From Nepenthes gracilis (Eukaryota; Streptophyta; Magnoliopsida; Caryophyllales; Nepenthaceae): a DNA stretch of 64,000 nucleotides. The number at the start of each line of letters is the position of its first letter. Positions within the stretch are counted from its first letter, which is position 1. The notes beneath the pieces were generated by a model. That model did no database searches. It was not told where the DNA came from and was given only the letters and a program-made list of their open reading frames with translations. Made by a program: the position numbers and the translations under genes. This document shows positions 5,504 to 55,347 of this stretch, one piece after another. The DNA lies in the NCBI GenBank assembly GCA_033239525.1, contig BSYO01000011.1, positions 6,477,973 through 6,541,972 on the forward strand. The letters are read 5' to 3'.

Positions 5504-6011
5504 TGATACGATCACTTACTGATCGATAGCCGATTGTGTCGATTTCAGCTCTGGACGTGGTGGAATTGAACGGAAGGGGAGATCTGACAGAGGGGGAGAA
5601 AGGAGGGAAGAGCAGGAGTAGACGAAGGGGGGAAGGGAAAACAGACAGACAGAGGAGGTTAGAAGAAGAGAAGGAAGAAATGAGTAAGTAAGATAATTCC
5701 TATTTCTTCTGTTAATGTGCAGTACAGTATTTAACAAACAAAATCAGCAAGCAAGAAACATAACAAACTGAAGAACAAATAACAAACAGAGAAGAAACGG
5801 AGAAGGGCAGTGGTAGTTTGCGTTAGAGCAAGAGCAAGAGCTGCACGTGTACAGCTTCACATGGGCTGTTGCAAAATTAAACCAGCAGACACAGCCATTA
5901 ACAAAACACCCGAGTCAGTCCCGGATATAATCCCGTAATCGCATCGGTGCGTGAGTAATTCGAGTACTCTTCCGTGTCACCAAAGTATCCCCGTTAATCA
6001 AACCGGTAACA
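5504..6011 (-). repeat. E1 3' LTR
   Basis: This 508-bp copy of the LTR starts TGATACGATC and ends GGTAACA on the plus strand. The last ~97 nt of the element's pol reading frame (stop at 5915) lie inside it. Confidence 0.92.
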
Positions 6012-6406
6012 TTGCCATCGCCAAAAAAAATGACCTTGTCCTCAAGGTTAAATTCTGAAAAATCCTGCATGAAGTCAACTGCTGTTTCCCAGGTAGCCTC
6101 ACTTGGGGATTGGGCTTGCCATTGTACCAAAAATTGGGGAATGAAGTGACCCTGGACGAGTATTTTTCTAAAGCCCAGCAATGCAGCAGGATGGAGGAGC
6201 GGTTGGGAGTCGTGGGCCTCCTGCGGCAGATCCATTGAAGTAGTGGGAAGATCACCCTTGAAGTGTTTTAGGAGAGAGACATGAAAAACATTGTGGATCT
6301 TGGAGCGTCGGGTAATTGCACTCGGTATGCCACCGATCCGATGCGGTCGAGAATTCGAAAGGGTCCATAGAATCGCTAGCCAATTTGTTGGATTGACGTC
6401 ATGCAA
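5915..6406 (-). pseudogene. E1 integrase C-terminus with chromodomain-like tail
   Basis: This 163-codon stretch contains a strand pattern typical of the end of chromoviral integrases. FHVSLLKHF is the common integrase C-terminal motif, FLVQWQAQSPSEATWE is the chromodomain-like core, and NLEDKV follows. It is out of frame with the integrase core at 6437-7069. The frame runs through the internal/LTR border and stops in the 3' LTR. Chromodomain tails of this class are thought to help target insertion. The clade name cannot be settled without a tree. Confidence 0.8.
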
Positions 6407-6436
6407 AGGGATTGTCGGTAGGGGTCTGTAATTTTA

Positions 6437-7360
6437 TCAAAACCCGCCGCACTTGATACACCTTCTTGGTTGGTGAGCATCCGCCTTTGCTTCATATCTT
6501 TGTTGGGCCCTCCGCAGATTGAATCGGAGAGTGGTGATGAGATTGGTTCGATTCGTGAGGAGTTCATCGATGGCTGCCACAGCAGAAGTGCCTTGTGTAT
6601 AGTCTAACAAGGAAGGAGGCGATCGGCCATAAACCGCCTCAATGGGGCTCATTTTGATCGAAGAATGCCATGAGGTATTATAATTCCATTCAGCCCAGGG
6701 AAGATATTGAATCCAGGAAGCAGGGTGATCCGCCACAAAGCAGCGTAAGTAATCCTCTAAACAACGATTCACAACCTCCATTTGCCCGTCGGTCTGTGGA
6801 TGATACGCGCTGCTGGTGGCCAATTTGGTCCCATGGAGTTTAAACAACTCACGCCAAAAGTGACTCATGAAAAGTGGATCTCTATCGGTTACCAACTCCA
6901 TAGGGAAGCCATGTAAGCGGCACACGTCTTGAACAAAGACGTTGGCAAGTTCTTGAGCTGTAAACTGGGTATGTAATAGGAAAAAATGGGAATACTTTGA
7001 AAGGCGATCCACCACCACTAAAATCACTGTTTTTCCATGGGAAGGAGGCAAGTGAGTTATGAAATCCATGGAAATGGATTCCCAAATTTTCCTTGGGATG
7101 GGGAGAGGCTGTAGTAAGCCTTGCGGTGCGGTCGTGAATGGCTTGACCTGTTGGCAGAAGGCGCACTGCTAGATAAACTCCTGAATTTCCTGGCGCATTT
7201 GGGGCCAATAGAAGACGTGAGCAATGCGAGTGAAAGTGCGCTGGAACCCGCCGTGTCCCCCAGTAGGCGAGTTGTGGTACTCTTGCATAATAAGATGTTG
7301 CAATGCGGATTCGGGAGGTACTAGAATTTTGGCTCGGTAGAAGATGAGTCCATCTTTCAC
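6437..7360 (-). pseudogene. E1 integrase (HHCC and catalytic core)
   Basis: Two frames together cover an integrase. Positions 7360-7169 encode the zinc-binding N-terminus with the H-x-H part (EYHNSPTGGHGG, FYWPQM). A stop follows EIQEF. The rest (CAFCQQ...) then leads into the core at 7069-6437, with MDFITHLPPSHGK, VVVDRLSKYSHF, TDRDPLF and the SSAYHPQTDGQMEVVNRCLE block. The catalytic Asp residues and the Glu of the DDE triad are visible. A stop and a frame change inactivate the whole. Confidence 0.85.
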
Positions 7361-7483
7361 CGAATAATCAGCATGGGCGCCTGGCTGGTTCTGTATGGCA
7401 TTGATGAGATCGCTAGAGGTGGGGTTATGCCGGGTGAAAGTGTCAAAGGTGCCTCTAGGCTAATACACGGGTTTGGAAATAAC

Positions 7484-8164
7484 CTATAGAGCATGGTAAG
7501 ATGGATCGTGGCGGCGAGACTGGGCATCCGCCGGTCCATTCTCCTTCCCTGGCCGGTATATGATATCGAAATCATAGCCTAAGAGCTTGGAAATCCAGCG
7601 TTGCTGGTCCAGAGTGTGAATCGTTTGTGCTAACAGGGCTTTAAGGGGTTGGTGATCTATTTGTATGACACATTTGGACCCCAAAATGTAAGTGCGCCAC
7701 TTATGAACCGCCTTTATAATTGCGCAAAGCTCTCTGACATAAGTGGAAGAGTTCTGCATCCTGACTGATAATTGTTTGCTATAGAATGCAATTGGATGGC
7801 CGGATTGTGTTAGAACGGCGCCTATACCAGTGCCGGAGGCATCAGTGTGAATGGTGAAGGGCTGGGTAAAATCTGGTAGCGTTAAAACTGGGGTAGTAGT
7901 GAGGGCTTTTTTGAGAGCTTGAAATGCTACCTCTGTTGCTGAGTTCCAGACAAAGGCTGATTTCCGCAGCAATTGAGTGAGAGGGGCAAAAATTTGAGCA
8001 TAGCTGGCCACAAATCGACGGTAATAGCCAGCCAGTCCAAGGAAACCACGAAGCTGTTTGACATTTTCTGGTGGTGGCCATTTCTGTACTACCGCAATCT
8101 TCAAAGGATCCACCATGACTCCTTGGTCAGTGACTATATGGCCCTGTATGCTATAGAAGAACAT
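7484..8164 (-). pseudogene. E1 RT thumb/connection and RNase H
   Basis: The frame begins near GHIVTDQGV, runs through the conserved LRGFLGLAGYYRRF block and enters RNase H at TDASGTGIGAVL, where the Asp is catalytic. It continues through ELCAI and VHKWRTYILG to the QRWISKLLGYDF and KENGPADAQSRR blocks at its end. The normal sequence of the last block is usually NxxADALSR, so the Q is a change. It joins the upstream RT only through frameshifts around 8160-8290. Confidence 0.85.
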
Positions 8165-8694
8165 CCAAACTCACATTTCGAGGGCTTGGGAAGGGTAGGA
8201 GTTATTCCAGCCGCGTTTGTAAGGCCGAATGGAGATGTTGAAGATGATGCTCCCTGTGATGGACTATAGACTAGGATATCATCGAAGAACACTAGGATGA
8301 ACTTTCGGAGGGCTGGTCTGAATATGTTGTTCATCTCGGCCTGGAATGTTGAGGGAGCATTAGAAAGTTCGAATGGCATGACTAAGAATTCATAGTGGCC
8401 TTCGTGAGTCCGAAACGCCGTTTTATGGATGTCGTCCTGATCCACTCTCATCTGGTGGTATCCTGCCCTCAAATCCAGTTTGGAGAAGAATTTCGCACCA
8501 TGAAGCTCATCCAGTAATTCATCGACAATTGGGAGGGGAAATCTGTCCTTGATGGTAATGGCATTTAGGGCTCGGTAATCCACACAGAAACGCCAGATGC
8601 CATCTTTCTTCTTTACCAGCAGAACAGGGGAGGAGAAGGGACTGGTGCTAGGTTGGATTATGCCTCGCCCAAACATGTCTCGGCGGTTTCTCAC
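8134..8694 (-). pseudogene. E1 reverse transcriptase palm
   Basis: The order of RT motifs is clear: [39 protein letters not shown] and FFDDILVYS with the catalytic Asp pair. The frame then loses register after VYS (residues [10 protein letters not shown] are a shifted translation) and returns at PSKCEFG. At the 5' side a stop/frameshift between 8734 and 8694 separates it from protease. Confidence 0.88.
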
Positions 8695-8733
8695 CCCGGC
8701 TTTCGGAAATAGGGGTAGCGGTATGGCCGCACA

Positions 8734-9843
8734 TTAAGCTGAGGCGTAATTTGGTTGGAGAGGTATGCGGTGGTCTGCCGCCCGGTGGGGAGAGGCACCA
8801 TGTGGGGTAGAGAACACATCTATGAAGGATAAGAGGAGAGTGTGAAGGATTTTAGCCTGTTCTGTGGACAGTTGTTCGTGGAGCTTAAATTGAGGAACGT
8901 TGTCTTTCGAATCATTGGGCAACACTTCTCCAGTAGTCATCTGTACGGTGAGTTGGAAACATGTGGCAATCGACTGAGTAACTTCTCCTCTTCGTAATTG
9001 GCCGAGTGTCATGGTGGCCATGGTTGCTCTCGGTAGTCCATGCAATGTGATTGAGTCTCCTTCATGTTGAAAGCGCATCCATAGTGCCTTATAATCACAG
9101 AGCACCGGTCCAATGGAAGCTAACCACTGAACTCCAAACACAAGGTCAGCTCCATATATAGGAAGCAGGTAGAGTTCCACATTGAACTTGGATTCTCCCA
9201 CGGTGGTAAGGACATGGGTGCACAATCCCTCACAGTGAAGAGAAGCACCATTCCCCACTGTGACGTTGAGGTGTTGGGATGGCTCGATTGAGACTCCCAA
9301 ATGTCTGGCCAGGCGTGTTTGAAGAAAGTTGTGGGTGGAGCCACTGTCCACCAAGATAATGACAGGATGGCCTCTGATAGATCCTTGCAGCCGCAAGGTA
9401 GAAGGAACAAAGTGGCCCTCTAGTGCGTGCAGTGAAATAGTGGGCGCATGATCAGAGGCTGGCCATAGTGATTCAGCTTCTATGCTTGAATCTGTGGGAT
9501 TGTCCTCTTCTGCCATCAGATTCTTTGTTGTAGTTGCTGACAGTCCATTCGAGCTGCTTTCCTCCACCAGCATACATAGAAACTGGGGAGGTTTACACCT
9601 GTGGCCCGGTATAAATCTTTCATCACAATTAAAGCATAGGCCCTTTTCCCTTCTAGCTGCCATCTCTACTGGTGTGAGACGTTTGATGGGTAATCTGTTG
9701 GTTGTATTAGTTGGCGGTAACGGCTTTGGGAGTGAATGAGGGGCACTGAGTTGCGGTTTGGTAACTGGAGCACGAGAGTGTAGTGAGCAGTTGTTATCGA
9801 AGTTTCTCCTCCACCAATTTGGCCATACCAATAGCCTCGACAA
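8734..9843 (-). pseudogene. E1 gag zinc knuckle and aspartic protease
   Basis: A 369-codon open frame contains the retroviral-type zinc knuckle CFNCDERFIPGHRC, an acidic linker, and an aspartic protease with VDSGSTHNF as its active site and the downstream LVFGVQWLASIG block. It is the longest open frame left in E1. The upstream end is out of frame with the remaining gag; the downstream end stops just before RT. Confidence 0.87.
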
Positions 9844-10609
9844 CGCCTCGTGGCTTCAACAAGAAGAAACTCTCGACGGATGTCATCCCTCAATCCAGAG
9901 ATAAAACAGATTCGGAGGTTATTAGCAGAGCAGCCCAAAGAGTGCGTGTAGAGATGGCTTCAAATTCAGTCATGTATGCCGACACCGTAGTGACTTGACG
10001 AAGCTTATACAAGGTAGCTTCATGATTTATATAAGAAGAAGGTCCAAATCTCAATTCGAGATCTCGAGAGAATACCTCCCAGGAGGATAGCTGGCGGGTG
10101 GCATGCATCCAGTGGAACCATTGAAGGGCAGGTCCGGCCATATAAAATGCTGCAATGGTCAATTTCTGGTCTGCTGGAGTGTAATGATACAAGAAGAAAC
10201 GCTCCATTTGAAATAGCCAACCCACCACATTATCGCCAGCGAAGAATGGAACCTCTAATTTGGGCAATCGAACCGATGGTGTGTGAAGAACGTCTGGCGG
10301 TGGAAGTGAAAGTTGAGGTAGGTTAACAAATTGGGAGGTAGACATGAAAGAACTCGAGGGAGGATGAGGAATTGAAGTAGGAGTCGGTAATAATGGTGGA
10401 TTGGGGGAGGGAATCAAATGGCGCTCGAGATGATTTAGGGATTGCCGAATATCACTGAAAGATTGTTGAAAATCATGGAGAGTTTGCTAAATCTGTTCGT
10501 TCGTCGTCATTTGGAGGTTGAATCGCTCTGAATGATCCTTGACTTCTTGGGCAACGCTGGCGATGGTGTCCTCCAGAGCTTTGCACCGGGTGGTCATTCC
10601 CTCTGCCAT
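9844..10609 (-). pseudogene. E1 gag, broken
   Basis: The gag start is the ATG at 10609, just inside the 5' LTR, beginning MAEGMTTRCK, as in E2 (MAEGMQTRYR). An in-frame TAG lies at 10487-10489 after 40 codons; the frame then stays open through PSPNPPLLPTPTS and the capsid-like part (PKLEVPFFAGDNVVGWLFQM, ALQWFHWMHA, FGPSSY) to 9890. At least two frameshifts follow between 9840 and 9940, where ISGLRDDIRREFLL and VEA-IGMAKLVEEK continue in other frames. Confidence 0.82.
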
Positions 10610-10634
10610 TGCGTCTCAATGAGAGCACCAAATA
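10610..10634 (-). promoter_or_regulatory. E1 leader and presumed primer-binding site
   Basis: On the minus strand, the 5' LTR end (...GTATCA) is followed by TATTTGGTGCTCTCATTGAG and then the gag ATG. TGGTGCTCTCATT begins with TGG as a tRNA 3' CCA complement would, but it is not the usual initiator-Met site. E2 has the same sequence with one change and E3 a diverged one. The matching tRNA was not identified. Confidence 0.55.
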
Positions 10635-11149
10635 TGATACGATCACTTACTGATCGATAGCCGATTGTGTCGATTTCAACTCTGGACGTGGTGGAATCGA
10701 ACGGAAGGGGAGATCTGACAGAGGGGGAGAAAGGAGGGAAGAGCAGGGAGTAGAGGAGGGGGGAAGGGAAAACAGACAGACAGAGGAGGTTAGAAGAAGA
10801 GAAGGAAGAAATGAGTAAGTAAGATAATTCCTATTTCTTCTCGTTAATGTGCAAGACAAAGATTTAACAAACAAAATCAGCAAGCAAGACACATAACAAA
10901 TCAAGAACAAATAACAAAAGAGAGAAGAAACGGAGAAGGGCAAGTGGTAGTTTGCGTTAGAGCAAGAGCAAGAGCTGCACGTGTACAGCCTTCACATGGG
11001 TACATTGCAAAAATTAAACCAAACAGAGACAGCCATTAACAAAACACCCGAGCCGGGCCCCGATATAATCTCGTAATCACATCGGTGCGTGAGTGATCCG
11101 AGTACTCTTCCGTGTCACCGAAGTATCCCCGTTAATCAAACCGGTAACA
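10635..11149 (-). repeat. E1 5' LTR
   Basis: This 515-bp LTR, the transcription-start copy of this minus-strand element, matches 5504-6011 over its full length. A purine-rich tract (GGGAAGGGAAAACAGACAGA) and a direct run of GAGCAAGAGCAAGAGC are visible in both copies. Confidence 0.92.
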
Positions 11150-11499: not shown

Positions 11500-13290
11500 G
11501 ATCCTGTACATCACAACTTAAAATAAAAGGTCAGGTGACGGTGAATTTGATCCCACTGAAAACACTCCAACGCTCAAATCAGTATAGAGCATTCTGAGGA
11601 CGATAAGGTAATAAGTAGTGAATGCAAAGATGGATACTTGGAGTGTGGTTGGAAACGTTGGTAGAAGGTGCACTCGTGGAGAGAGTGGCTCGAGTTAAGG
11701 ATGCTTATAGGAAGTAATTTTTCCTCAGTACTCAGTTTTTAGGGAACCAGTAGTTGAGAAAAAGGGACAAGCGTTAGAAAGTTTGAGTTCGTAGAGAGTT
11801 TCTATAAGCCTTAGTTTGCTAGATGGCATTTTATAGGCAAGAGAGAGTATGTCTGTGAAGTGAATTTCTATAACCTTTTATAGTCATAGTCCTCCGCTGC
11901 CTTCCTTACGTAGCGAGGCAGGATGCTCGCATTCTGTTGGGATCATTGCCTTTCTTATGTGGATGCAAGCGCCATTCTTGGCTGCAATGGTTAAGAATGT
12001 AGATCCCTTTCCTTCTGCGTATGATAACCGTTAGGATTTTTTGCACTGATTCATGTGCCTTCCTCCAAAAATGTGCTTTGATTCTAGGAGGTTATTGTTA
12101 TAGTAAAGATTTCTTTTCTTGGAGATGCAAAGAATTTGCGCAGATGACTGTTGAGGTCTAGGAAGGTGTGCGTGGGCCGATTTAGACATGGACAGCGTTC
12201 ATCCTGGGCCACGACCGGCCTTTTTGCTACTTCTCTGATCAACAGTAGCGTTGACCATTCCAAGCACAGATGGGCTATCGTTGATCTTGGGTCACTTACT
12301 CCTTTTGGGCCGACCCGCTGCTGACGTCCCCATTACTAACTCCCCATGCTGGTGGCCTGGGATTCCGACCTCTGGCATATTCACGATGGAATGCATCTGG
12401 TTGTATAATTTGTAAAGAGGAAATTTAACGAGAAAACTTGCTGTTGGTTTTAGTCTTCATCTCTCGTCTCTGTGCATTTTTTTATCTTTGGCTCCGAGTC
12501 TGTTAACCACGTTGCTTGAATCTATTGGTCATCGTACTTGAATTCGATGGACGGAGTAGAAAAAGATGTTGACCGGATTCGTTGACCGCACTGTTAGAAT
12601 CCGGAGAACTGAGTTGAAGAAAGTATTAACCGAATTCGTTGATCGCAATGTTAGAATCCGAAAAACTGAGCGGGAAGAATGTTGAAAAGATTCGTTAATT
12701 GCACTGTTAGAATCTGAAGAACTAAGTTGAAGAAAACATTGACTAGATTCGTTGACCGCAATGTTAGAATCCGGAGAACTGAGTTGAAGAAGCGTTGACC
12801 GGATTCGTTAACGACGACGTTAGAATCTAGAGAATTGAGCGGGAAGAATGTTGACCGGATTTGTTGACCGCGCCGTTAGAATCCGGAGAACTGAGTTGAA
12901 GAAAGTATTGATCGAATTCGTTGACTGTTGTACTAGAATCCGGAGAATGGTGTGGGTTGAGATTGACACGTTATTCCGTTATGCTGCTAGACGGGCAGTC
13001 GAGGGGCTGTAGAGTCGTTTTAGGACTCTGAGTGGCCCGCTGCTCTCTGCCACGTGCTATCATACAGTGAACTTGTAATCATTACAATTAATTTGCTAGA
13101 GGATTTGATTTGAAAGCGCCCTCTTTGGAATTGACACATGTCCGTTATAATTGCCGTGCCTTTTCGATGCGCTGCTTCACTTCGACAGCGGTGAACTTTA
13201 TAAAAACCACGTATCAGTTCAAAATTTTCACACCTTTCTTCCCAAAAATTTCAAAATTAAACATAATTTAAGTGGGGAAGAAAATGTTGA
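11500..13290 (+). mobile_element. LTR-like region, related to the 56.3-57.5 kb region
   Basis: Its beginning (TCCCACTGAAAACACTCCAA then CGCTCAA(A/G)T) parallels 56305-56335, where CCCACCGAAAACAATCCGAC is followed by GCTCAAGTTAG. Motifs like 'CCGACGCTCAAGT' occur in long LTRs of several plants. The later part holds TTGAC repeats, then GTGAACTTTATAAAAACCAC at about 13191-13210 as a TATA-like element and a leader rich in TTTC/CAAAA. No protein is encoded. I infer a long LTR or LARD remnant; its ends are not defined. Confidence 0.45.
12567..12955 (+). repeat. 57-bp tandem array, about 6.5 copies, with TTGAC cores
   Basis: The word GTTAGAAT recurs at 12593, 12650, 12706, 12763, 12819 and 12875, with a diverged copy at about 12933, giving spacings of 56-58 bp. 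Units contain (A/G)ATTCGTTGACCGC, GTTAGAATCCGGAGAACTGA and either GTTGAAGAAAG or GCGGGAAGAA. The array contains six TTGACC and two TTGACT words on the plus strand, the core recognised by WRKY factors (W-box). Confidence 0.9.
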
Positions 13291-18128: not shown

Positions 18129-18133
18129 CAGAT
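18129..18133 (+). repeat. E2 target-site duplication CAGAT (left)
   Basis: CAGAT here and at 22108-22112, directly flanking the LTR ends. Confidence 0.9.
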
Positions 18134-18411
18134 TGTTGCAATCGAGCCGATCTCGGACCGATTACCGGCAGATGCACCGATTTCTTGTGGAAGCAAAACG
18201 GGGAAGGGGAGTCCTGGGGCGAGGGATGAAGATGATGACAGTAGGGGAGGGGAAGGTTCGAGAGAGAGAGAGAGAGGGAGAGAGGGGGAGAGAAATAGAG
18301 AGAGAGAGCTGAGACTGAATTTTCCTTTCTTTCTCATTAGGCGTAGCCTTACAATTATAGGGGAACGGGAAAACGGGAAACTGAATACGGGGAACGGGTA
18401 CGGGCGTAACA
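18134..18411 (-). repeat. E2 3' LTR
   Basis: 278 bp, starting TGTTGCAATC and ending GGGCGTAACA on the plus strand. It contains a GA-rich simple repeat at about 18259-18307. Confidence 0.93.
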
Positions 18412-18512
18412 TTGCCCTGTCCATCAAAAGAACCTTGTCCTCAAGGTTAGACACGAAGATAAAATTCTAAAGCATTAGGATCCAGCGTAACTCAATATTT
18501 TCCCGAGTCCCA
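18412..18512 (-). pseudogene. E2 relic of the pol 3' end
   Basis: On the minus strand the frame 18454-18412 reads SNLEDKVLLMD just before the 3' LTR, corresponding to the NLEDKV end of pol in E1 and NLKDKV in E3. The DNA AACCTTGAGGACAAGGTT is a short imperfect hairpin. It marks the junction where captured sequence meets native element sequence. Confidence 0.7.
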
Positions 18513-19556
18513 TTATCTTCTGCATTTGTCGTAGCTCCCCAGATAGTTTCCAAAACTTTGTTCAACTAACTTCTTAGCATCTTCCAAAGTTCTTCCTGTT
18601 CGTGAAACCTTAAAATCATTTGCTTTATTTAATCTCCTTGTTACTTTAGCATCCGCAAGAAGATTAAGAACCATTCCATATGAAGCAGTGAACGGGGAAA
18701 CAAGAGGTTCAATTCCAGAAAAGAGAAACTTGCAACACTCTTCACGACCTTCGGTGGGAGTCTGAACAAACACTACATGACCTCTTTCGTCAATGCCTCT
18801 ACGTCCAGCACGTCCAGCCATCTGAAGCAGTTCATTTGTTCTTAGCTGGACACGTCCACCATCAGTTCTCTTGCTGAGGGAAGCAACAATAGCTGCCCTA
18901 GCAGGCATGTTAATCCCAGCAGCCACACCATTGTTCAAAGCTGAGTAACAATGAGCCCTTTGCAAATGTATAATGCCATTGTCAACCCTACCGGGAAAAT
19001 TTTCTTCCAACAGCAGATAACACTTCAATGCAGATTCATAATGCTGAAGACTTATAAATGATTTTGCCACTGCAGTAATAAGGTTGATGTAATCCTCACC
19101 CTCCCGTTGCAAGGGACTGAAACAAATCTCAGCCTCCTGAAGAGACAGATCCGAGTTATACTGCTCCTGCAAGGAACTATCTGCACCTTCAGAACCAGAA
19201 CCAATGGCTTTAGCATTGCACTGCCAAAACGTTCCAGATGGATCTGTATAGTATAGACTTTGTCCGTGTTCATCATGACCAGCAATGAGAAGGGATACCC
19301 CAAAAGGTCGAGACATGGATTCTTCATCCCCTTCACCAAATCGGAGAGCCAGATTGCATAAAGCTTGTGTGGTAGACTCAACAGTCATCGGCTCACCATA
19401 TGAAAATCTATGATTCTGGGTCTCCACCCGTGCATGCTCAACTAGTGTATGGGCATCAGCAATCAATCCACTCATGGCACATCCAATATGCTCATCAATT
19501 TCCATAATTTTTTTCAACACTGCTGGGCTCCTCGGGAAACCAAGTTGTTGCACCAT
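18513..19556 (-). CDS. E2 chimeric ORF1: proteasome alpha5 / TFIIIC TPR / ISE2 helicase fragments
   Basis: A 347-codon frame without stops. Residues ~13-143 match the middle of plant 20S proteasome subunit alpha5 ([52 protein letters not shown]). Residues ~148-208 match the TPR region of plant TFIIIC subunit 3 ([25 protein letters not shown]). Residues ~211-346 match chloroplast RNA helicase ISE2/DExH15 (AAGINMPAR, motif [39 protein letters not shown]). The PAE piece lacks the N-terminal Thr-pore-facing part and C-terminus, and the helicase piece lacks the ATP-binding motifs, so no parental activity is expected. The joins are gene to gene without introns. Whether the frame is translated is unknown; it may be a pseudogene-like mosaic. 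Confidence 0.85.
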
Positions 19557-19577
19557 TGGATAGGTGAGGATAGCAAT

Positions 19578-21296
19578 CTATATCATCCTGAATGGCCATG
19601 AAAATTCCTTCCAAAATTGATATAGGATTTTCTTCATCAAACCTTTGTGGACTTGCTGTCCCCCATCCTCAGCATTATAGGAAATAAAAAATGGAGTTAC
19701 TGAGTTACTTTTCTTAAAATCCTCCAATGCCATTATCTGCTCTCCAACCATGGATGGAGTTGCTAGTCTTGTTCGGTCAACATATGCAAAATCTTGGATC
19801 TCCACGTACCCAAATGGTGCAGTTAATTCTTCCTTCCAGCAGATAGTAGGGTCATACATTGGAAGGCAGTTCAAGGTTGCTGCAACGTTCATAGCCACTC
19901 TCACTTCTTTCACCGAGTCATCAGCTGGACCCTTGTCGGTAGACTGTTCAGTTGGCTTGTTGAATTGCCTTACAACAACTGCCATATGGCTGTGACCTTT
20001 CAGGAATTCATTCAAGATATCATACAATGGCATGGTTTCTGGCACTCTCGGGATCCTGCGGATGGTGACACTCTTTACAGGTACTTCATCTTCTGGATGA
20101 ACGGTCAACAAATTTTTCACAAGAACTAGCCCAATTATATTCGTAGGCTCTTCATAATAAACCGACAATCTACTGTGCCCATTCCCCAAAATTGAGTTCA
20201 TTAAATCCCTGTCAAGCTGGGCATTGATATCCCAAGCAAACCCAATATTGTTTGTTGTCTCCATTTTATCCCCATTCAGAAGTGTGTTCACGGCAGTCCG
20301 ATAATCCCAGGTGCCGCCCACAACAAATCCAGCAACATCAGTTTCAACCCAGGTCTGATAGTAACAGACAACATGTTGATGTTGCAAATGAAAAAGGGTT
20401 GACACTTCCTGCAATTTTCGATCATCATAAGCAGGGGAGTAAATTGCTCCCACCAGAGTTGCATCGCCTGCATGGTAAGTTGAAAAATCACAGAAAAGCT
20501 GCCTTGCTATAAATGTAGGAAAATGAGCAGACACCAGTACAAGCAATATGGCGCTAAAGGACGTGCTCTCTCCCTCTACTAGATTTATGACACAGCCCCC
20601 ATATGTAACAAAGGCACCAGAAACTGAGTCGTAAGGCTCATCTGCAGTAAGTTGCTCCATCACTGCTGCAGTTGTGTGTCCAATTCCATTTGACAATGAA
20701 GCGATAATATCAACCGAAAGTCCACCCGTAAATGAACCACCAGTTGGAGGCCCATGACCCTCAGTTCCACTCCTGCTTCTTTCATTTTTGAAGTGAAAAG
20801 GGGTTATAATGACAGAGCCGTTCAACAGTTTAGGGGTGAGAAGACCGCAATTATGCACAAGAGGAGCAAGGTGTCTGCACTGAGATTTGGGCGTGATCAC
20901 CAGTTGGCCATGAAGGACCTCCTGGTTGGACTGACAACCCATGGAATTTGCAATTTCTCTCAAACGTTGGGTGTTAGAAATACCCACCATTGTGATGAGT
21001 GTGTGTTCATCGTCCAAACGGGGAAGAGGCCGATGCTCTATTTTTGGAAACGAATCTGTTGGAAATTCGTCCTCATTGGAGCCCGCTTCTGTAAGTGGAA
21101 GGAGACTCTGACCACCGTCACCCTCCAAATCCAGGTCGATCGGGTTTAATTTCTTGAGTGGGAGAAGGCAATTTGGCCGATGTGTGACTGGTCGAACGGG
21201 TGGAGGAGAAGTAGAAGAAATCACTGAAGGTGAAGAGGTCACTGACCTTTTAGTGTTGCGCTCGAGTCGGTGGAGTGACGGTACAGCCGTTTGCAA
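19578..21296 (-). CDS. E2 chimeric ORF2: GCN2 / DUF21-CBS fragments and unassigned parts
   Basis: A 572-codon frame without stops, 21 nt upstream of ORF1 on the same strand. Residues ~286-346 match plant eIF2-alpha kinase GCN2 (KLQEVSTLFHLQHQHVVCYY, QTWVET), a piece of the kinase N-lobe without the catalytic loop. Residues ~355-466 match plant DUF21/CNNM-type CBS proteins (LDRDLMNSIL, GHSRLSVYYEEPTNIIGLVL, VTIRRIPRVPETMPLYDIL, GHSHMAVVVRQ). Residues 1-100 are Pro/Ser-rich and acidic. Residues ~187-275 (MEQLTADEPYDSVSGAFV) and 467-572 (SMVGEQIMALEDF) also look like real protein but I could not name their parents. The first Met is the longest-frame choice; no upstream gag fusion in frame is seen. 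Confidence 0.8.
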   Translation of the reverse strand: MQTAVPSLHRLERNTKRSVTSSPSVISSTSPPPVRPVTHRPNCLLPLKKLNPIDLDLEGDGGQSLLPLTEAGSNEDEFPTDSFPKIEHRPLPRLDDEHTLITMVGISNTQRLREIANSMGCQSNQEVLHGQLVITPKSQCRHLAPLVHNCGLLTPKLLNGSVIITPFHFKNERSRSGTEGHGPPTGGSFTGGLSVDIIASLSNGIGHTTAAVMEQLTADEPYDSVSGAFVTYGGCVINLVEGESTSFSAILLVLVSAHFPTFIARQLFCDFSTYHAGDATLVGAIYSPAYDDRKLQEVSTLFHLQHQHVVCYYQTWVETDVAGFVVGGTWDYRTAVNTLLNGDKMETTNNIGFAWDINAQLDRDLMNSILGNGHSRLSVYYEEPTNIIGLVLVKNLLTVHPEDEVPVKSVTIRRIPRVPETMPLYDILNEFLKGHSHMAVVVRQFNKPTEQSTDKGPADDSVKEVRVAMNVAATLNCLPMYDPTICWKEELTAPFGYVEIQDFAYVDRTRLATPSMVGEQIMALEDFKKSNSVTPFFISYNAEDGGQQVHKGLMKKILYQFWKEFSWPFRMI

Positions 21297-21806
21297 CTCG
21301 TGGAACTCCTTCGTCTTTTCTGGTAAGCTAGGGATTGAACAGAATTGTGAGATTTCGATGGAAGGCCGACGAAGATGAGAAAACGGGATGAAAATCGAAG
21401 CGGAATTTGTAGACGACCGGAAATGGTGGTCGCTTCATTGTTGTTCGATTCCGGCCAAGGTCGGCCAACTCTCAGCGAGGGATGGGAGAATTAGTTTAGT
21501 GGTGTTGGTAGGTGCGGTTAATAGAGCAAGGTTTTGCGAGTTTGGCGTGGTCACCGAAGGAAGTGAAAAAGGGGATGGAGTAGTTAATAGAGGTGGATTT
21601 GGAGAAGGTGAAGTCTGGCGTTCGAGGCGAACCAGAACTTGGCGTATCTCCGAGCGTATCTCTGAGATGGACTGCTACATTTCACCGCACATCTGTGGGA
21701 GATGTTCAAGGGACGACAGGCGTTCTGCATGTTCTCGCAACTCCTGCCTGATACTGGCGATGGACTCCTCGTGAGCCCTGTACCTCGTCTGCATCCCTTC
21801 CGCCAT
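21297..21806 (-). pseudogene. E2 gag remnant
   Basis: Starts at the ATG at 21806 with MAEGMQTRYR and a helical, charged stretch (SIRQELREHAERL) like the E1 gag start. An in-frame TAG lies at 21675-21677 after 43 codons. Reading on gives a QSISEIR...LVRLER segment comparable to E1 and E3, after which no gag capsid or zinc knuckle can be found before ORF2. Confidence 0.7.
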
Positions 21807-21829
21807 TTGTCTAAATGAGAGCACCAATA
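21807..21829 (-). promoter_or_regulatory. E2 leader and presumed primer-binding site
   Basis: Minus strand TATTGGTGCTCTCATTTAGA lies between the 5' LTR and the gag ATG, nearly identical to E1. The priming tRNA was not identified. Confidence 0.55.
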
Positions 21830-22107
21830 TGTTGCAATCGAGCCGATCTCGGACCTATTACCGGCAGATGCACCGATTTCTTGTGGAAGCAAAACGGGGA
21901 AGGGGAGTCCTGGGGCGAGGGATGAAGACGATGACAGTAGGGGAGGGGAAGGTTCGAGAGACAGAGAGAGAGGGAGAGAGGGGGAGAGAAATAGAGAGAG
22001 AGAGTTGAGACTGAATTTTTCTTTCTTTCTCATTAGGCGTAGCCTTACAATTATAGGGGAACGGAAAAACGGGAAACTGAATACGGGGAACGGGTACGGG
22101 CGTAACA
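21830..22107 (-). repeat. E2 5' LTR
   Basis: 278 bp, the same length as the 3' LTR, with only about six substitutions between them. Confidence 0.93.
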
Positions 22108-22112
22108 CAGAT
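22108..22112 (+). repeat. E2 target-site duplication CAGAT (right)
   Basis: Matches 18129-18133. Confidence 0.9.
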
Positions 22113-25077: not shown

Positions 25078-25583
25078 ATTATCCATACTAGAGTGCCATG
25101 TTTAGCATTGATTCTCTTCCCTTGATAGTTTAATTTTATACTTGAAAATCAATTATTTTCAATAATAAACTTAATTAAATATGATAACATATATCATATT
25201 TTAGCACTCAGATGCTACGCTTCCGAGGTCAATGGGTGGTAGGATGAATCTAAACACGTAGCTGCGTGGCCCCTTTTGTTTATCACTCTGTGTAGGTGAT
25301 TCTGTAGAGGACTTATTGTGCCAATTTCCAAGGTTGACATTAGAGTGTCTCATCAGCATTGGACATGACAATCAAATGATTTTTCGGTTAGCTACTACTA
25401 CTTTTTCTTCTTCTTAAAAGAAAAATAAAAACTAGGAATACGGTGGGCTCATTTGTTTTTGAGGCTGTCTAGAAATTCTGTGTGTTTGGCTGGCTGGTCA
25501 AACAACCCAAAAGTGATCAAAATCACACTTTAGATCAATATTATATTACAATGGGGGATTAAAACTAATTGGTTGAAGTGATG
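25078..25583 (+). repeat. direct repeat R, copy 1 (shortened)
   Basis: Matches 28836-29437 almost exactly over long blocks (for example AGCACTCAGATGCTACGCTT, TAGGATGAATCTAAACACGT), but is about 96 bp shorter because several AT-rich segments are missing or replaced. The pair could be degenerate LTRs of the copia-like interior between them, though clear TG...CA ends are not visible. Confidence 0.8.
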
Positions 25584-27410
25584 GCGCTTCGCCCAAGCCA
25601 CCCCCATCAAGAGGCCATCAAAACCTTAGGCCCCCAAGTATGCATGTGGCGACTCCTAACGGGACAAGAACTATCAACCAACCATGGCCGGTTGAGGCTA
25701 GGGTTGAGGTGGGTGACGCATAAATTGAGTAATGATGTCCTCCGAATAGAATAAAGCGCCAAAGTGGTAGCACGCGGCAACGACCTACGACTCCATCGAG
25801 CTTCGATTTTAAATTCCATGGTGGTTAAAACCCATAATTATCTTACCCTAAGCGATGCTCACCCATTGTTGTGTTTTACGACTCTCCAATCAAAAAAGGA
25901 TGAGCACGAGAGGGCCAAGGCGCTCAAGGAAAAAATAAAGGAGGCAAAAATTACCCCAAGAAGTAGTAGTGCTAGCAGAGATGACCACCTCGGCCTACCT
26001 ACCCCATTGTAAGTCGAGCACATGCAAGATGGCCCGCCCTTCTAAGATGAAGAAGCCACTTGCCGATTCAAAGGAAGGCCACCCATCTGTAGCAATCAGA
26101 AATTAAAAATCGGCCGACGGGTTTGAACCGGGACGCGGAGGAAGGAAGGAGCGGCAGTTGCAGCTGCAGGAGCTGCGCCCATTTCAAAACATAGACGATC
26201 TTTTGTAAATATATATATATTATATATATACGTATATATTTCCTTATATTCGATATATAATTATATCATTATATATAAAGGGAAGGATGATCCAAGGTAT
26301 ATAATTGTATATATATATAAATAATGGAGATTAAAATAATTTTGAGAATTCCCTAATTAAAATAATTTAATTAATTGAAATTAGCGCACAATTACCTTAA
26401 TTAATAAATTATTTTATTTTATTTTATCAGTATGGTATAAAGACATAAAGGTAATTATTTGGATGGAGCCATTTTAATATGAAGGATTACGATAAAATAT
26501 CAAAGACGAGGATTAAGAAAGGAATAGAAGATAGTTTTATCATATTAGGCCCGAGGGCTACCTAGAATTTTTTTGTCTTTTAGGCAAAAACATAACTTAG
26601 ATGATTTTGGATGTTTACATTTGAAAAGAAGCAAGAATGTGAAACCGAACTAAAAGGGGAAAGCCTCAAAAGGAAGTGTCATGGAAAGGAGCATGCAAAT
26701 CGCCTCGGTTTAATGTTCATAAAGACTAAAATTCTATTTGGTATTCGAGAGACATCCCATCAGTGCTTGGATTTCTTGCACATATAGGGAATTTGTGATT
26801 TCGGATAAACAAGCACCCTAATAATGAAGTTTTCATCTATTAGGCTCGGCGTTAAGGGCATGGGTGGCATAATGCAAAGAGTCCAATAAAACCACCCTTC
26901 ATGGTGCATTACACCCAACCTCGGGCCTTTTAAAATCTTATAACACATTGTGACAAGAGACTTAGAAGGAAGGCTGGAACGAACAAAGTCTTCATCGCAA
27001 AAAGGAAGGAAGGTCAAGACGCAAGCCAAGTCAAAGGGAAGGGAGATCGATTCGACTCAATCCAAACGTATCAAAATTGGCTTGAAAAGAAAGGTAATCC
27101 ATCAAGATAAAGCCTAACACAGGAGGCATATTTCTAATGGGCCAAAAAAGGATAAGTGTCAATGGCTAAAACAAGAACGACAGCAATTTAATTTTAGATG
27201 GACTCTTGAAAAGACCTTTTATATTCCAAATTCTCTAGAAAGATTTATTCTAGACTTGTACCATTTGGATATTCCTTTATATTTTCGGACTCATTATTGG
27301 CCATCTTATAAACCGATAGAGCAATGGTCTTTATTGTTTGAATTTGTAAAGATCATACATTTATGAATGAATGTTCCTCGATGTTGTGGCATAGGAGATG
27401 GAACATATCT
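25584..27410 (+). other. decayed retroelement sequence, no intact gene
   Basis: Contains blocks shared with 23.9-24.4 kb (for example CGACTCCTAAC, AACCAACCATGG, GGCCTACCTACCCCATT, ATATGAAGGATTACG) and a very AT-rich part at 26200-26440 with TATATA runs. No frame with a recognisable motif. It may be the leader/gag part of the copia relic that follows. Confidence 0.4.
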
Positions 27411-27414
27411 CCGT

Positions 27415-27770
27415 TGTAGAATCAAAAGATTGGTAAATGATGGAGTACTTAGTACTCTAGATTTTACGACTTTGAGACTTGTGTGGAGCCTTAAAGGAAA
27501 GCACCAACAAGACTAAGAAAAATGCTAAGAGGAGTTCGGACGTATTAGAGATCCGAGATAGGGGAACCACACAGAGCCTAAAATATTTCATCACCTTTAT
27601 TGATGATTTCTCACGATATATGTATCTTTACTTGCTTCATAATAAATATGAAGTCTTGGATGCTTTTAAATTGTTTAAAGCGTAGAGAAATAAACCGAAA
27701 AAAATATCAAAATTGTGAGATCGAATACGAGGTGGTAGTATTATGGTAGATAATGCCCAAATGGCCAACA
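27415..27770 (+). pseudogene. copia integrase fragment
   Basis: Reads RIKRLVNDGVLSTLDF at the pre-integrase side, then KYFITFIDDFSRYMYLYLLH and DAFKLFKA, the well-known Ty1/copia integrase core start, with the first catalytic Asp in IDDFSR. Stops and a frame change surround it and the zinc-binding part is reduced. The rest of the integrase is missing. Confidence 0.8.
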
Positions 27771-28190
27771 ATCCCTTCAAGAAAATAGACACTTGTCATG
27801 GACCGAGAAAGAAGAAACCAAACATTTGGACATGGTAAGGAGCGCCAAATCCTTCCCCAGTAAAGCTCTTAAATAATACAAATACCCCTTATCACTACAA
27901 GTCAAGGGGCTTCTTGCTTGGGCAACATCAAAGAGCACTACTTAAGTGGGCATTTCTCAAGGTCCTCTTCTAAGGGATCAGATTTTACTATCCATCTCAA
28001 AAGCCTTCGATCGAAATGCAAAATTTGGGGATGTAAAGTGGGAGAACCAAGATTTCTGACCCTCTTCATATGATAGGTTGATTGATGTACAACTTCTTCA
28101 ACCAATCTGTCATTCCACAAAAGTTGATTGAGCCACTCTGGATTTATCATGAAAAGTGCACCTTTAGTGATCTACCAGACCACGTGTATC
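27771..28190 (+). repeat. mosaic block shared with 24.7-24.9 kb
   Basis: Shares ACTTGTCATGG, GGGCAACATCAAAGAGCACT (27920 versus 24787), TCTCAAGGTCCTCTTC (27955 versus 24812) and AAGTGCACCTTTAGTGATC (28154 versus 24869) in the same order with different spacers. No gene. Confidence 0.65.
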
Positions 28191-28420
28191 CAAGTCGACT
28201 ACAAGGAGCCGAAAATGATCTGAAAACGTTTTCCATATCTTTGAAAGAAGCCTCCTCCTATCGGGCGCATTATAGGAACTTAGTCCTCCTTTTACATCCC
28301 CTATATATGTGCAACTCTACATTCTTTCATATCCTCATTATATCTTCCTATCTATTGGGAAAGATTTTTGATACGAACATCAAAGGATAAATTGAGAAAT
28401 GAGTTTTACCAATCTTCTAA
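28191..28420 (+). repeat. LTR-like family, copy 3 (partial)
   Basis: CCTCCTCCTATCGGGCGCAT to AAGGATAAATTGAGAAATGA parallels copies 1 and 2. It sits inside a copia relic, so it was moved or recombined here rather than forming part of an intact element. Confidence 0.55.
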
Positions 28421-28835
28421 TCTCTTTATTTGCTTTGAAGAGAATATTTTGGATCAATGTATATACTAGGAAGGTCGATGGGAGTAAGACTTGTTTCCTT
28501 GTCTTATATGTGGATGATAGTATCCAATGATAAAGGGTTGTTGTATGAGAGATTTCTCTCGAAATATGGGTGATGCATCTTATGTCATTGGCATAAAGAT
28601 ACATCGAGATAAAGACCAGCGTTGTGTACAGGTTCCACCCGACTCCCTATATCAATAAGGTTTTAGAGACCTTATCAATAAGGTTTTAGAGATTTCGGAA
28701 AATCGAAGGGTGATAAGCTCAATTTGAGCCAATGCCGAAAAATGGTTCATTCCATATCTTCCGTTGTTGGAAGTTTGAACTTCAGTATGTACAAGACCAA
28801 GAAACTCGAACAAAGATTTTATGGACGCATCAATT
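28421..28835 (+). pseudogene. copia reverse transcriptase fragment
   Basis: Different frames give DGSKTCFLVLYVDD (the catalytic YVDD of copia RT), KGLLYERFLSKYG, TPYINKVLE and a stretch corresponding to KGDKLNLSQCPKN. These are consecutive conserved blocks of the copia RT C-terminal half, with internal deletions and a short duplication of AATAAGGTTTTAGAGA near 28656 and 28677. Confidence 0.75.
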
Positions 28836-29437
28836 ATTATCCATGCTAGAGTGCCACTCATGCGCGGTTTAGCCATTGATTCTCTTCCCTTGATAGTTTA
28901 ATTTTATACTTGAATATAAAATTATTTTCAATAATAAACTTAATTAAATTAATTATGATAACATATATCATATTTTAGCACTCAGATGCTACGCTTCCGA
29001 GGTCAATGGGTGGTAGGATGAATCTAAACACGTAGCTGCGTGGCTCCTTTTGTTTATCACATTTTGTAATTTTAGGTGATTCTGTAGAGGACTTATTGTG
29101 CCAATTTCCAAGGTACATTAATTAATTTGAGAATATCATTGTTACATTAGAGTGTCTCATCAGCATTGGACATGACAATCAAATGATTTTTCGGTTAGCT
29201 ACTACTACTTTTTCTTCTTCTTAAAAGAAAAATAAAAACTAGGAATACGGTGGGCTCATTTGTTTTTGAGGCTGTCTAGAAATTCTGTGTGTTTGGCTGG
29301 CTGGTCAACACTACTCTCATTTGTCTTATTTTGAAGGTCTCAGCTCCATCTAGAATCACAAACTTTAGATCAATATTGTATTGCAATGTAATTTATAAGA
29401 TTATTTTAAAGATTAAAACTAATTGGTTGAAGTGATG
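28836..29437 (+). repeat. direct repeat R, copy 2 (longer)
   Basis: 602-bp partner of 25078-25583. It follows the copia RT fragment directly, the position of a 3' LTR, but lacks obvious TG...CA borders and a TATA box. Confidence 0.8.
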
Positions 29438-34642: not shown

Positions 34643-37600
34643 TGCTTCTTGAACTTATTTGAGCAGGATATCAGGGTCTGTTTTGGGATTTTATTTCTGT
34701 TATCCTTATTTCTGAGTGCTTTATTTCTGAACATTTTATTTTTGAAGCACTTAATTTCTAGTGCTTAAGAGCAACTCATGCTCGTACAAGATATGCTTGA
34801 AGAGTTGCAGAGCTCCATATATGTCATGGTGTTATTTTTTGTTTACACAAAAGTCATCTAATGATGCCTAGCAGTTCATGTGACACTTATTTTTCCAACA
34901 CCATCCGCCTTTTTAGAAATGGAAATGTGATGCGGATACCCGAGATGAAGATTTGCTTTGATTTGCCTTCCAAATTAGATTTGATTTTATTTCCATAGCA
35001 ACTTTGATTATTAATTAGATTAGATTAGATTTTTTATTTAGTAGTGATTTGATTTTATTTTTCTTTAATTCTATTTCCCAATTAGGAGTTATTTGGTGAT
35101 GATTTTATTTTTAATTTTCTTAGGTATCGTGTTCTCTATATAAGAACCCCTACTTCTATTGTTTAAAGATATTGATGAATATTTTGAGATATTGAATTTG
35201 ATCAAGTTTTTGTGACCTTATTCCCCTTCTCTCCCTTGGTTTCTTTTCTTTCTTATCTCTACCCCTCTAATATCTCTTTCTTGTCTGTACCCCGCTCCTT
35301 TCTCTCTGGCTCTCTTCCATACTTTCCCCTTCATACATCAAATTGGTATCAAAGATAAAATTCGAACTCCACTGCTCCACTGTACACTGTCCACCCTACA
35401 ACGTTCATCTCGTGCAACCACATCCCCTTCCGTAACTTCATCACCTTCCCGTGCAATCAGCAACACCACCACATCCCTACCTATAATGTCCCACCGACCC
35501 GTAGCATACAGTTGCATCTTTTGCAGCAAGCAAAATCTCAATCAGTTCTGCCTTCTTTTGTTCTATACTACCAAAAAAAAAAACAAAAAAAATTGTTGAA
35601 AAAAAAAGGAGAGAAAAGAGAGAAAAAAAGATAGAGAAAAAAAAAGAGTAGAGGAAAAAAATATAGCAGATAAAATTCAGTTAGTTGTAGATCCTCTCCA
35701 AGGTAGTCTTAACAAGCGGGTTAGATTATCTCTAGGTGTGTTTGTTTTATTTTATTTTTGGGCAGTATATTTTGTTTATCTTTAATAGTATTTAGTTTTA
35801 TCTGCGTGTGTTATTTTATTGCCCCCCCAAAAAAAGAAAAATTCTTTCACGTCCTCTCACTACTTTATATTTGATACACCATTATTACAATTGATTCTTG
35901 TTTTATAATTTTAATAGATTTGTAATACTAGTTTGCATGATCTGAACCATACAAAATCTTACAAAAAAAAAAAATAAAAATAAAAATTGATTAACTTGGA
36001 TTGTCTCAATTGTTTATTGATCTCAACTCCGTTAATTATATTGGTATTATATGCACTTGCAAAGTGGTCGAATTATTTCTCATAATACCCCCGACTTAAT
36101 CATGGACTCTAACCAATTTGAAACTTTGAGTCAACAATTAGCCCAACTAATTCTCCACCAACTACAATTGTAAGATCACCTGATGGCCATTCAAATTGAC
36201 TTGGCTACAACTTGTCAAACCAATTTGGATATCACAAATCAAGTTGCCACTTTGGAAATAGGGCTTTACTCATCGGATGTTAACAACTTCGACGCATCCC
36301 ATAATAAGGCTAACCGATGTAGACAAGGTAGTCAAGCCCCTTGTAGACGCAATTATAGACTCCAACACTCGATCCAACAGCTGGACCCGGATAATCACCT
36401 TTTTAAAAATATTAAATTGGATGTCCATACTTTTGATGGCTGCTTGGACTCTTGAGTTTTCACTCAATGGGTCCGGGATATGGATCGTTTTTTTAAATAG
36501 TATGGTGTTTCAGAAGACAGAAGAGTTCAATTCGCTAGCCTTAAGTTGACTAGAAATGCTCAATTATATTGGAAAAGTGTTGAGGACCTCCTTATCAGGC
36601 TACCCCTGTTTGGAGTTGTGCTTAAATGAAACGACGCCTTCAAGAGAAGTATTTACCCTATTCTTACAGTAACAATTTATTCGACCAATGGAATGCCCTT
36701 CGACAGGATAATCGGTCTGTAAATGAATATGTGACTCAATTCGATAATTTTCAAGTGAGATGTCACATAATTGAGGACGAGGTCATGACGTTGAGTAAGT
36801 TCCAGTAAGGACTACACGAGGATCTTAGGAAAGAACTTGTCCTTCGTGGAGTTACAATTTTTGACTATGTATATAATTTGGTTCGAGACTTTTAGTTAGT
36901 TATCAGGATATCATATCGTCAATCTACATCATACACTCCTGCTACAAATTCTAAGTCTGTCTTAGGAACCTTTCCTTCTACCGTTGCCCCTACAAGGGAA
37001 ACTCGAGGAAAGGATGTTGAAGCCCCGAAAAGAAATTATCAATTACAGTGTTTTAACTGTAAAGATTTTGGGCATATTTCTTCCAAATGTCCGACTAAAG
37101 CTTTATTAATTGACGGACAAAATGAAATAAATGAGGAACCCCTTGAAGAATAAGTATATGAACCCAAGTTAAAAGAGTTTGATGACTTGAATGATGATGA
37201 CATTGACACATTTGTGAGCTGCATTTGGCTTATTTCTTCCAGCCTAGACTCTAGTTCTTCCTTTCTTGATACACCACTTTTGGGCGTTGTGTGATGCACA
37301 TTGGCACAATCTAAAGAGGTTGATGATTGGCGTCGTCACGCTATTTTTCATACTTATATCAAAGTGAATGAGAAGGCTTGCAAGATAATTGTTGATAGTG
37401 GTAGTTGTATCAATGCGGTCTTCGCTAACATTATTTCTCATTTGGGATTAAAGGAGATCCCACACTTTAATCCATACGTCTCTTTGATTGACACGTCTTC
37501 TATATCCGTTAAAGAACGTTGTCTTGTATCCATGCAATTTTTAGAATACAAAGATAACATTTGGTATGACATTATACCAATGGACGTGGGTCATGTCATT

Positions 37601-54290: not shown

Positions 54291-55347
54291 CTAAACAGTA
54301 TCATCATTCTTGGTTATCATACATAAGAATTGGGGAGGCATACATCGATGGTCAAATGTGAAACGCTCATCACAATTAAAGCATAACCCTTTCTCACGTT
54401 GTGCGGCCATCTCCGTAGGTGTCAATTTCTTTATGGGTAATTTGGGTGGAGGATTTTGTGGCGGGTACGGTTTCAGTGTCTGTGATGAGGGATGTGGCTT
54501 GGGCTTTGGCGTTGGGGGTAAGTGAAAGGACAACCGTCTTGCCTCAAATTTCTCCTCCACGAGTTTGGCCATACCAATAGCATCCGGTAGAGAAGTGGGT
54601 TTCAACAAGAGCAGTTCACACCGAATATCATCACAGAGCCCAAAAATGAAGCAATTGAGGAGATTACATGCCGTTAAACCTGGAGTGCGAGTGGAGAGTG
54701 CCTCAAAGTTAGCCATATAGGTTACCATGGTGGTATTCTGGTGAAGCTTGTACAAAGTGGCCTCATAGTTGAGGTATGAAGATGGTTCGAACGGAAGCTC
54801 CAAGTCTTGTGCGAATAACTCCAAGGTGGAGAGCTGTCACGTGGCATGCATCCACTGATACCACTGGAGCGTCGGGTCGGTCATGTAAAATGCGGCGATG
54901 GTAAGTTTTTGCTCAAGTGGCTTGTTATGGTACAAAAAGAATTGTCCAATTTGGAACAACCATCAAATCACGTCTTTCTCTGCGAAAAATGAAATTTCAA
55001 GTTTGGGTAACTGTGGTTGTGCCGAAATAGACCCATCCGGTGATGGAGAAAGTGAAATGGGTAGGGTTTGTGCCGGTGGGTTGAGGATAAACAATGGGTG
55101 ATACCATAAATGAAGAAGGTGTGGGTAGCAAGGGAGGGCTTGCTGTTGGGAAAGATTGCCGCTCGAAATGGTTTAGGGATTGAAGAATTTTGGTTAGGAA
55201 TTGTTGGAGCTACTTCGTGGTAGTGGTATTTACAGCAAGAACATCGGCATGATGTTGTACGGACGCCGCTATCTCCCTTAGTTCTTGTGACAATCTAGCA
55301 ATCGATTCTTCCAGGGCCTTGAATCTGGTATTCTTGCCGTCTGCTAT
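54291..55347 (-). pseudogene. E3 gag with zinc knuckle
   Basis: The 177-codon frame 54824-54291 contains FISGLCDDIR-like (FGLCDDIRCELLLLKP), IGMAKLVEEKFEA, and the zinc knuckle CFNCDERFTFDHRC, where the usual GH is DH. Upstream, the N-terminal part is in frame from 55347 (ATA in place of ATG) with an in-frame TAG at 55210-55212 after 45 codons. Capsid blocks between are fragmentary. Confidence 0.75.

Follow-up and report, generated by a model that had tools for sequence, protein, structure and literature searches.

A Ty3-type LTR element of Nepenthes gracilis carrying a chain of host-gene fragments

Overview

The element E2 occupies positions 18134-22107, on the minus strand, of the window (the whole 64-kb stretch of Nepenthes gracilis DNA that was analyzed), and includes the region 18513-21296. 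As judged from its sequence, E2 is an LTR retrotransposon of the Ty3 type (chromovirus-like) and is non-autonomous. Between its LTRs stand fragments with six confirmed parents which are, in the sense order of the element, BEACH-C2, GCN2, DUF21-CBS, fatty acid amide hydrolase (FAAH), proteasome alpha5, and ISE2/DExH15. All six are in the sense orientation of E2. The explanation that we consider probable is that E2 gained these pieces by serial capture of host mRNAs through template switching of reverse transcriptase.

Architecture and age of the element

The two LTRs of E2 (18134-18411 and 21830-22107) are 278 bp each, align without gaps, and have the termini TGTTGC...CGTAACA, i.e. TG...CA ends. 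A 5-bp target-site duplication, CAGAT, flanks the element on either side, so that E2 displays the paired LTRs, the TG...CA ends, and the short target duplication of LTR retrotransposons. The LTRs mismatch at 6 of 278 positions, i.e. 2.2% (4 transitions and 2 transversions; K2P 0.0219), close to the figure of about 2% read earlier from the sequence. Substitution rates of other plants lie between 7e-9 and 1.3e-8 per site and year. With these rates, the LTR divergence dates the last insertion of E2 to about 0.8-1.6 million years ago and, on this molecular estimate, the insertion is young. The captures are probably older than this last insertion because the protein P0002, described below, appears to be a second copy that has diverged but has joins in common with E2.

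The features of E2 are given below in element sense order; P0002-P0006 and P0127 are related N. gracilis proteins.

22108-22112, unstranded: target-site duplication CAGAT, right copy, read from the sequence
21830-22107, minus: 5' LTR (element sense), 278 bp, TG...CA, 6/278 mismatches with the other LTR
21543-21806, minus: Ty3-type gag start, whose homologues in the window lie at 10421-10609 and 55084-55347; interrupted by a stop at 21675-21677
20730-21542, minus: leader in the gag frame, with one stop at 21435-21437 and open afterwards; no database parent matched
20571-20729, minus: piece of BEACH-domain protein C2, some 53 codons long; Sarracenia BEACH C2 is 54% identical over 61 aa, E 3e-14
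20427-20570, minus: 48-codon piece common to P0002, P0003, P0004, P0127, and partly P0006, from the comparison of relatives
20283-20426, minus: GCN2 (eIF2-alpha kinase) fragment; 69% over 32 aa, E 4e-9
20241-20282, minus: short spacer, about 14 codons, separating GCN2 from DUF21; also present in P0002 and P0006
19896-20240, minus: DUF21-CBS (CNNM/CorC-like) fragment; PDB E 1e-10, 74% over 116 aa to the Striga protein P0008
19530-19883, minus: FAAH fragment, end approximate; E 2.1e-8, 6.3e-14, and 2.4e-9
19128-19529, minus: 20S proteasome alpha5 fragment, start approximate; PF00227 E 2.2e-37, spinach PDB chain E 2.1e-77
18927-19127, minus: 67-codon TPR-like piece, "TFIIIC" in the earlier note; TPR_1 E 0.089, below cut-off; same join in P0002
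18534-18926, minus: ISE2/DExH15 helicase fragment; 92% over 131 aa to N. gracilis Nepgr_003500, no gap
18412-18533, minus: 3' tail, a few codons and then non-coding up to the 3' LTR
18134-18411, minus: 3' LTR (element sense), from the LTR pair comparison
18129-18133, unstranded: target-site duplication CAGAT, left copy, read from the sequence

Gag start and neighboring elements

The homology behind the Ty3 affiliation of E2 covers the gag start, which matches that of the element at 5.5-11.1 kb (43% over 67 aa, E 9e-9) and that of an element near 55 kb (36% over 88 aa, E 5e-11). The gag of a neighboring element matches PF03732, and the stretch 3' of the E2 5' LTR resembles its counterpart in the 5.5-11.1 kb element. 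The domain search reports no pol domain in ORF1 or ORF2 and E2 shows no reverse transcriptase-RNase H-integrase order of its own; it is because of this missing pol that E2 is filed only as a non-autonomous relative.

The neighboring element at 5504-11149, minus strand, is a decayed Ty3-type element with LTRs about 93% identical, and exhibits the Ty3 order gag, protease, reverse transcriptase, RNase H, integrase, and chromodomain, the last being weak (E 5.2e-5, below cut-off). An element of this kind is a possible helper for E2. The gag start at 55084-55347 adjoins LTR-like repeats at about 50.1-50.7 and 55.4-56.0 kb. Two more LTR-like direct-repeat pairs span 25168-29308 and 34923-41341, the latter with a weak protease match at 37295-37783, and a 158-nt repeat at 12508-12947 occurs as three neighboring copies, of which two are 62% and 75% identical to the reference copy. 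Within the window, no other copy of E2 was found, only short matches beside LTRs.

Host-gene pieces and their parents

The matches listed above bear out four parents that had been named from the sequence alone, namely proteasome alpha5, DUF21-CBS, ISE2, and GCN2. The alpha5 fragment is 84% over 148 aa, with the last residues beyond the join, and about 130 aa of it are free of gaps. For ISE2, the search with residues 285-925 of the read-through reports 784 proteins and, among the best 120 of the 784, Nepgr_003500 is the only one named from N. gracilis. The fifth named parent could not be confirmed: the 67-codon piece first taken for a TFIIIC TPR segment returns no PDB match, and its sole Pfam signal is the sub-threshold TPR_1. 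A DUF7164 match (E 0.033, below cut-off) was dropped, and the stretch between ORF2 and ORF1 was ruled out as a further gene in view of the FAAH match there.

Three segments of ORF2 had been left without a named parent. Residues 467-572 are mostly FAAH and can now be named, while residues 187-275 comprise the BEACH-C2 fragment and a further piece with no assigned parent. The 48-codon piece between BEACH and GCN2 returned no PDB match with the P0002 version as the query. Residues 1-190 likewise have no assigned parent. The leader part tested, residues 1-185 of ORF2, returned no Pfam and no PDB match, and the alignment of a Zizania BEACH protein extends weakly into the leader end, up to 20888 (35% identity). 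The earlier note also described the pieces as joined directly. This stands for the FAAH-alpha5, alpha5-TFIIIC, and TFIIIC-ISE2 joins but not for BEACH and GCN2, which are separated by the 48-codon piece, nor for GCN2 and DUF21, which are separated by the spacer of about 14 codons.

Reading frame and phase of the joins

The open frames of 572 and 347 codons were recovered as first described, ORF2 at 19578-21296 and ORF1 at 18513-19556, both on the minus strand. The 572 codons of ORF2 assume a TTG start; the frame has 618 codons from stop to stop and 470 from the first ATG. The 618 codons form the longest stretch without stops between the LTRs of E2, as compared with a maximum of 221 and a mean of 115 in 1000 dinucleotide shuffles, an excess that is expected because the sequence is derived from coding sequence.

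All confirmed pieces read in element frame 2, which is the gag frame, except for the FAAH end and the first alpha5 codons, which read in frame 1. Reading of the sequence together with the alignments places the entry into frame 1 at a one-base shift of host phase within the FAAH fragment and the exit near the start of the alpha5 fragment, where the phase shifts back. Each is a single base, both lie in homopolymer runs, and they cancel each other. ORF1 and ORF2 therefore seem to be parts of a single frame in host phase that these two shifts interrupt. According to passages of PMC12244726, the N. gracilis assembly was built from Nanopore reads, so that a sequencing error could lie behind either of them.

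The parents share the same phase at the FAAH-alpha5 join. More generally, wherever the host phase is confirmed on each side of a join, the join is in phase; there are five such joins (BEACH-GCN2, GCN2-DUF21, DUF21-FAAH, FAAH-alpha5, and alpha5-ISE2), the first and the last of these spanning an intervening piece without a matched parent. The chance of five in-phase joins is (1/3)^5 = 0.004, or 0.0014 with the gag-BEACH relation, a statistic that loses force because it was for the long frames that E2 had been picked out.

Relatives in N. gracilis

The search with ORF2 residues 1-300 reports six proteins, the P0001 of the window itself and five N. gracilis proteins. The search with P0003 reports 13, which are P0003, two of the earlier five, P0127, five BEACH-type or unnamed proteins, and four GCN2 proteins. 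Altogether, six N. gracilis proteins on other contigs (P0002-P0006 and P0127) carry the BEACH part of E2; these are gene models that may be cut short or spliced artificially. The closest parallel is P0002 (Nepgr_022229), which repeats the succession of BEACH, 48-codon piece, and GCN2 (94% over 142 aa) as well as the alpha5-TFIIIC-ISE2 joins (98% over 159 aa). A further copy with several of the joins of E2, which the earlier note had proposed to look for, is thus found on another contig. The P0002 gene model also comprises DUF21 sequence absent from E2, and has no FAAH. P0003, P0004, and P0127 possess longer BEACH or GCN2 pieces, and these gene models, which can be cut short, returned no match to the later pieces of E2. 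P0005 holds kinesin and RRM pieces. P0006 holds a DUF3741 piece, and a 26-aa piece of it matches the FAAH segment of E2.

When the BEACH-GCN2 core was placed in a FastTree protein tree with host BEACH and GCN2 proteins as the root, E2, P0002, P0005, and P0006 formed one clade with a support of 1.000, and a three-residue deletion is common to all four. P0127, P0003, and P0004 branch earlier, outside this clade. Within it, E2 and P0002 group with a support of 0.900, and P0005 and P0006 with only 0.296; the long branch of E2 includes leader sequence that does not align. We infer that the relatives and E2 belong to one mobile family.

Two of these models have an unusual context. P0003 (Nepgr_026467) is peptidase S28-like and P0127 (Nepgr_012048) is importin-like, each with a BEACH-GCN2 chimera as its tail. 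Both are probably gene models running into a neighboring insertion.

Conserved-site decay and probable stepwise growth

A site counted as conserved when conservation across the retrieved homologues was at least 95% (85 homologues for ISE2, 32 for alpha5, 4 for GCN2, and 3 for DUF21). At these sites, E2 has changed 7 of 77 in ISE2 and 5 of 120 in alpha5; the counts for DUF21 (8 of 76) and GCN2 (6 of 24) rest on few homologues. The seven ISE2 changes include one join residue and two that are common to the N. gracilis parent. At the same 77 sites, this parent has 2 changes; among the homologues, the median is 0 and the maximum 4. Conserved-site changes are commoner in GCN2 than in alpha5 (Fisher p 0.003). 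As counted, GCN2 does not differ significantly from ISE2 (p 0.07); removal of the join residue and of the two parent-shared changes leaves 4 of 74 for ISE2 and a p of 0.013, a correction that is impossible for GCN2.

Capture apparently took place in more than one step because the relatives carry different subsets of pieces and because GCN2 lost more conserved residues than alpha5. The data suggest that the chain grew piece by piece, and the subsets of the relatives, the tree, and the decay pattern would fit serial capture followed by trimming.

Origin of the chain

LTR elements are described, in passages of PMC5408686 and PMC13317346, as packaging host mRNAs and switching templates at short similarities, or microsimilarity. 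E2 has kept its LTRs and gag start, and the chain of host pieces takes the place of pol. In the mechanism that we favor, an autonomous relative would most likely supply the enzymes that package and copy the RNA of E2 in trans. While copying, the reverse transcriptase may jump to co-packaged host mRNAs and then back, each round of jumps adding sense-strand pieces that would be already spliced. The enlarged element would then transpose and capture anew, and copies that stay open were possibly selected. At the FAAH-alpha5 join, the FAAH and alpha5 parents both read SVE (S-V-E), which may be a lead for similarity guiding the switch. The earlier note had proposed the capture of several mRNAs in successive template switches. 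Its first part stands, as there are several unrelated sense captures, apparently made in more than one step in view of the differing relatives and the GCN2 decay; as to the mechanism, template switching on mRNA is the likeliest but is not proven.

The best of the alternatives, which we nevertheless regard as unlikely, is that the chimera was first built at the DNA level, by a Helitron, a Pack-MULE, or a genomic rearrangement, and was then taken over once as a single transcript. The P0003 and P0127 models would agree with it, since their BEACH-GCN2 pieces stand behind long host genes and chimeras may thus exist outside LTR elements, and, without the correction, GCN2 stands out only weakly from ISE2 in its decay. 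However, the six confirmed pieces are all in sense and in one phase, and a single takeover yields neither relatives with different added genes nor a GCN2 piece more decayed than alpha5.

A still weaker proposal, already raised in the earlier note, is that the fusion is expressed as a gene and that selection maintains its protein. The long open frames, as compared with the shuffles, and the annotation of P0002 and other N. gracilis relatives as proteins speak for it, yet it is very improbable. Residues that are near-invariant in the plant homologues fetched are changed, the frame is shifted twice, and translation from the gag ATG runs into a stop at codon 44, with another one ahead of the open frame. 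Given the altered residues and the end of the gag-start translation at codon 44, retention as a working protein is unsupported. The openness of the frame is itself unsurprising. About 29 missense changes were counted (10 in ISE2 against its parent, the join residue excluded, and, at conserved sites, 5 in alpha5, 8 in DUF21, and 6 in GCN2) and, with a nonsense/missense opportunity ratio of 0.054-0.060, these predict fewer than 2 stops, so that zero stops is not significant and the absence of stops was rejected as proof of selection. The encoded protein was probably not kept. Lastly, that an assembly artefact joined unrelated sequences is hardly credible, for although the Nanopore reads named in PMC12244726 and the position of both shifts in homopolymer runs could account for the two shifts, they do not account for the joins, which recur in P0002 on another contig, while the LTRs and target-site duplication are intact.

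Serial template switching thus remains the preferred origin. A bolder extension of it, which we put forward tentatively and consider somewhat doubtful, is that Nepenthes hosts a non-autonomous Ty3 family acting as serial mRNA traps, whose copies are favored only if the added piece keeps the frame open, for instance by escaping nonsense-mediated decay; the frame would be kept but not the protein. If this were true, the family would hold a growing and branching record of captures.

Comparison with known systems

Pack-MULEs possess terminal inverted repeats and a longer target duplication, while Helitrons have ends of their own and no duplication; both capture genomic DNA. In contrast, E2 has LTR ends and a 5-bp target duplication, and no inverted repeat of at least 80 bp was found anywhere in the 64-kb window. 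What these elements share with E2, following the passages of PMC13317346, is that they are mobile elements with host gene fragments.

A literature search of titles and abstract openings, with most subscription papers outside its reach, did not return any description of E2. Passages of PMC3726574 and PMC7264820 report that the LTR elements of rice and sorghum have captured host genes, with many cases in each genome; E2 likewise has host genes in an LTR element, but a chain of at least six different genes per element is not described in those passages. The nearest known system is maize Bs1, an LTR element that took up parts of three host genes and gave rise to a new chimeric gene, according to passages of PMC13317346; the title of the 2001 Bs1 paper, as given in the reference list of that article, speaks of a hybrid open reading frame. 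In the reviews compared, as far as their passages go, Bs1 with its three genes is the leading plant example of LTR capture. E2 and Bs1 are alike in bearing host-gene pieces inside one LTR element and, in E2, several unrelated host genes in sense form such a hybrid frame. They differ in that E2 has six confirmed parents instead of three and, from the same passages, none of these is among the three of Bs1. E2 also has related chimeras with different subsets on other contigs, a comparison drawn from the E2 side. With a six-gene chain and relatives whose subsets are earlier or otherwise different, one could read the order of capture, the rules of the junctions, and the role of the open frame directly from sequence, and some annotated Nepenthes proteins may be retroelement chimeras. 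Within the passages compared, E2 is therefore of a known kind and carries more captured genes than the other cases.
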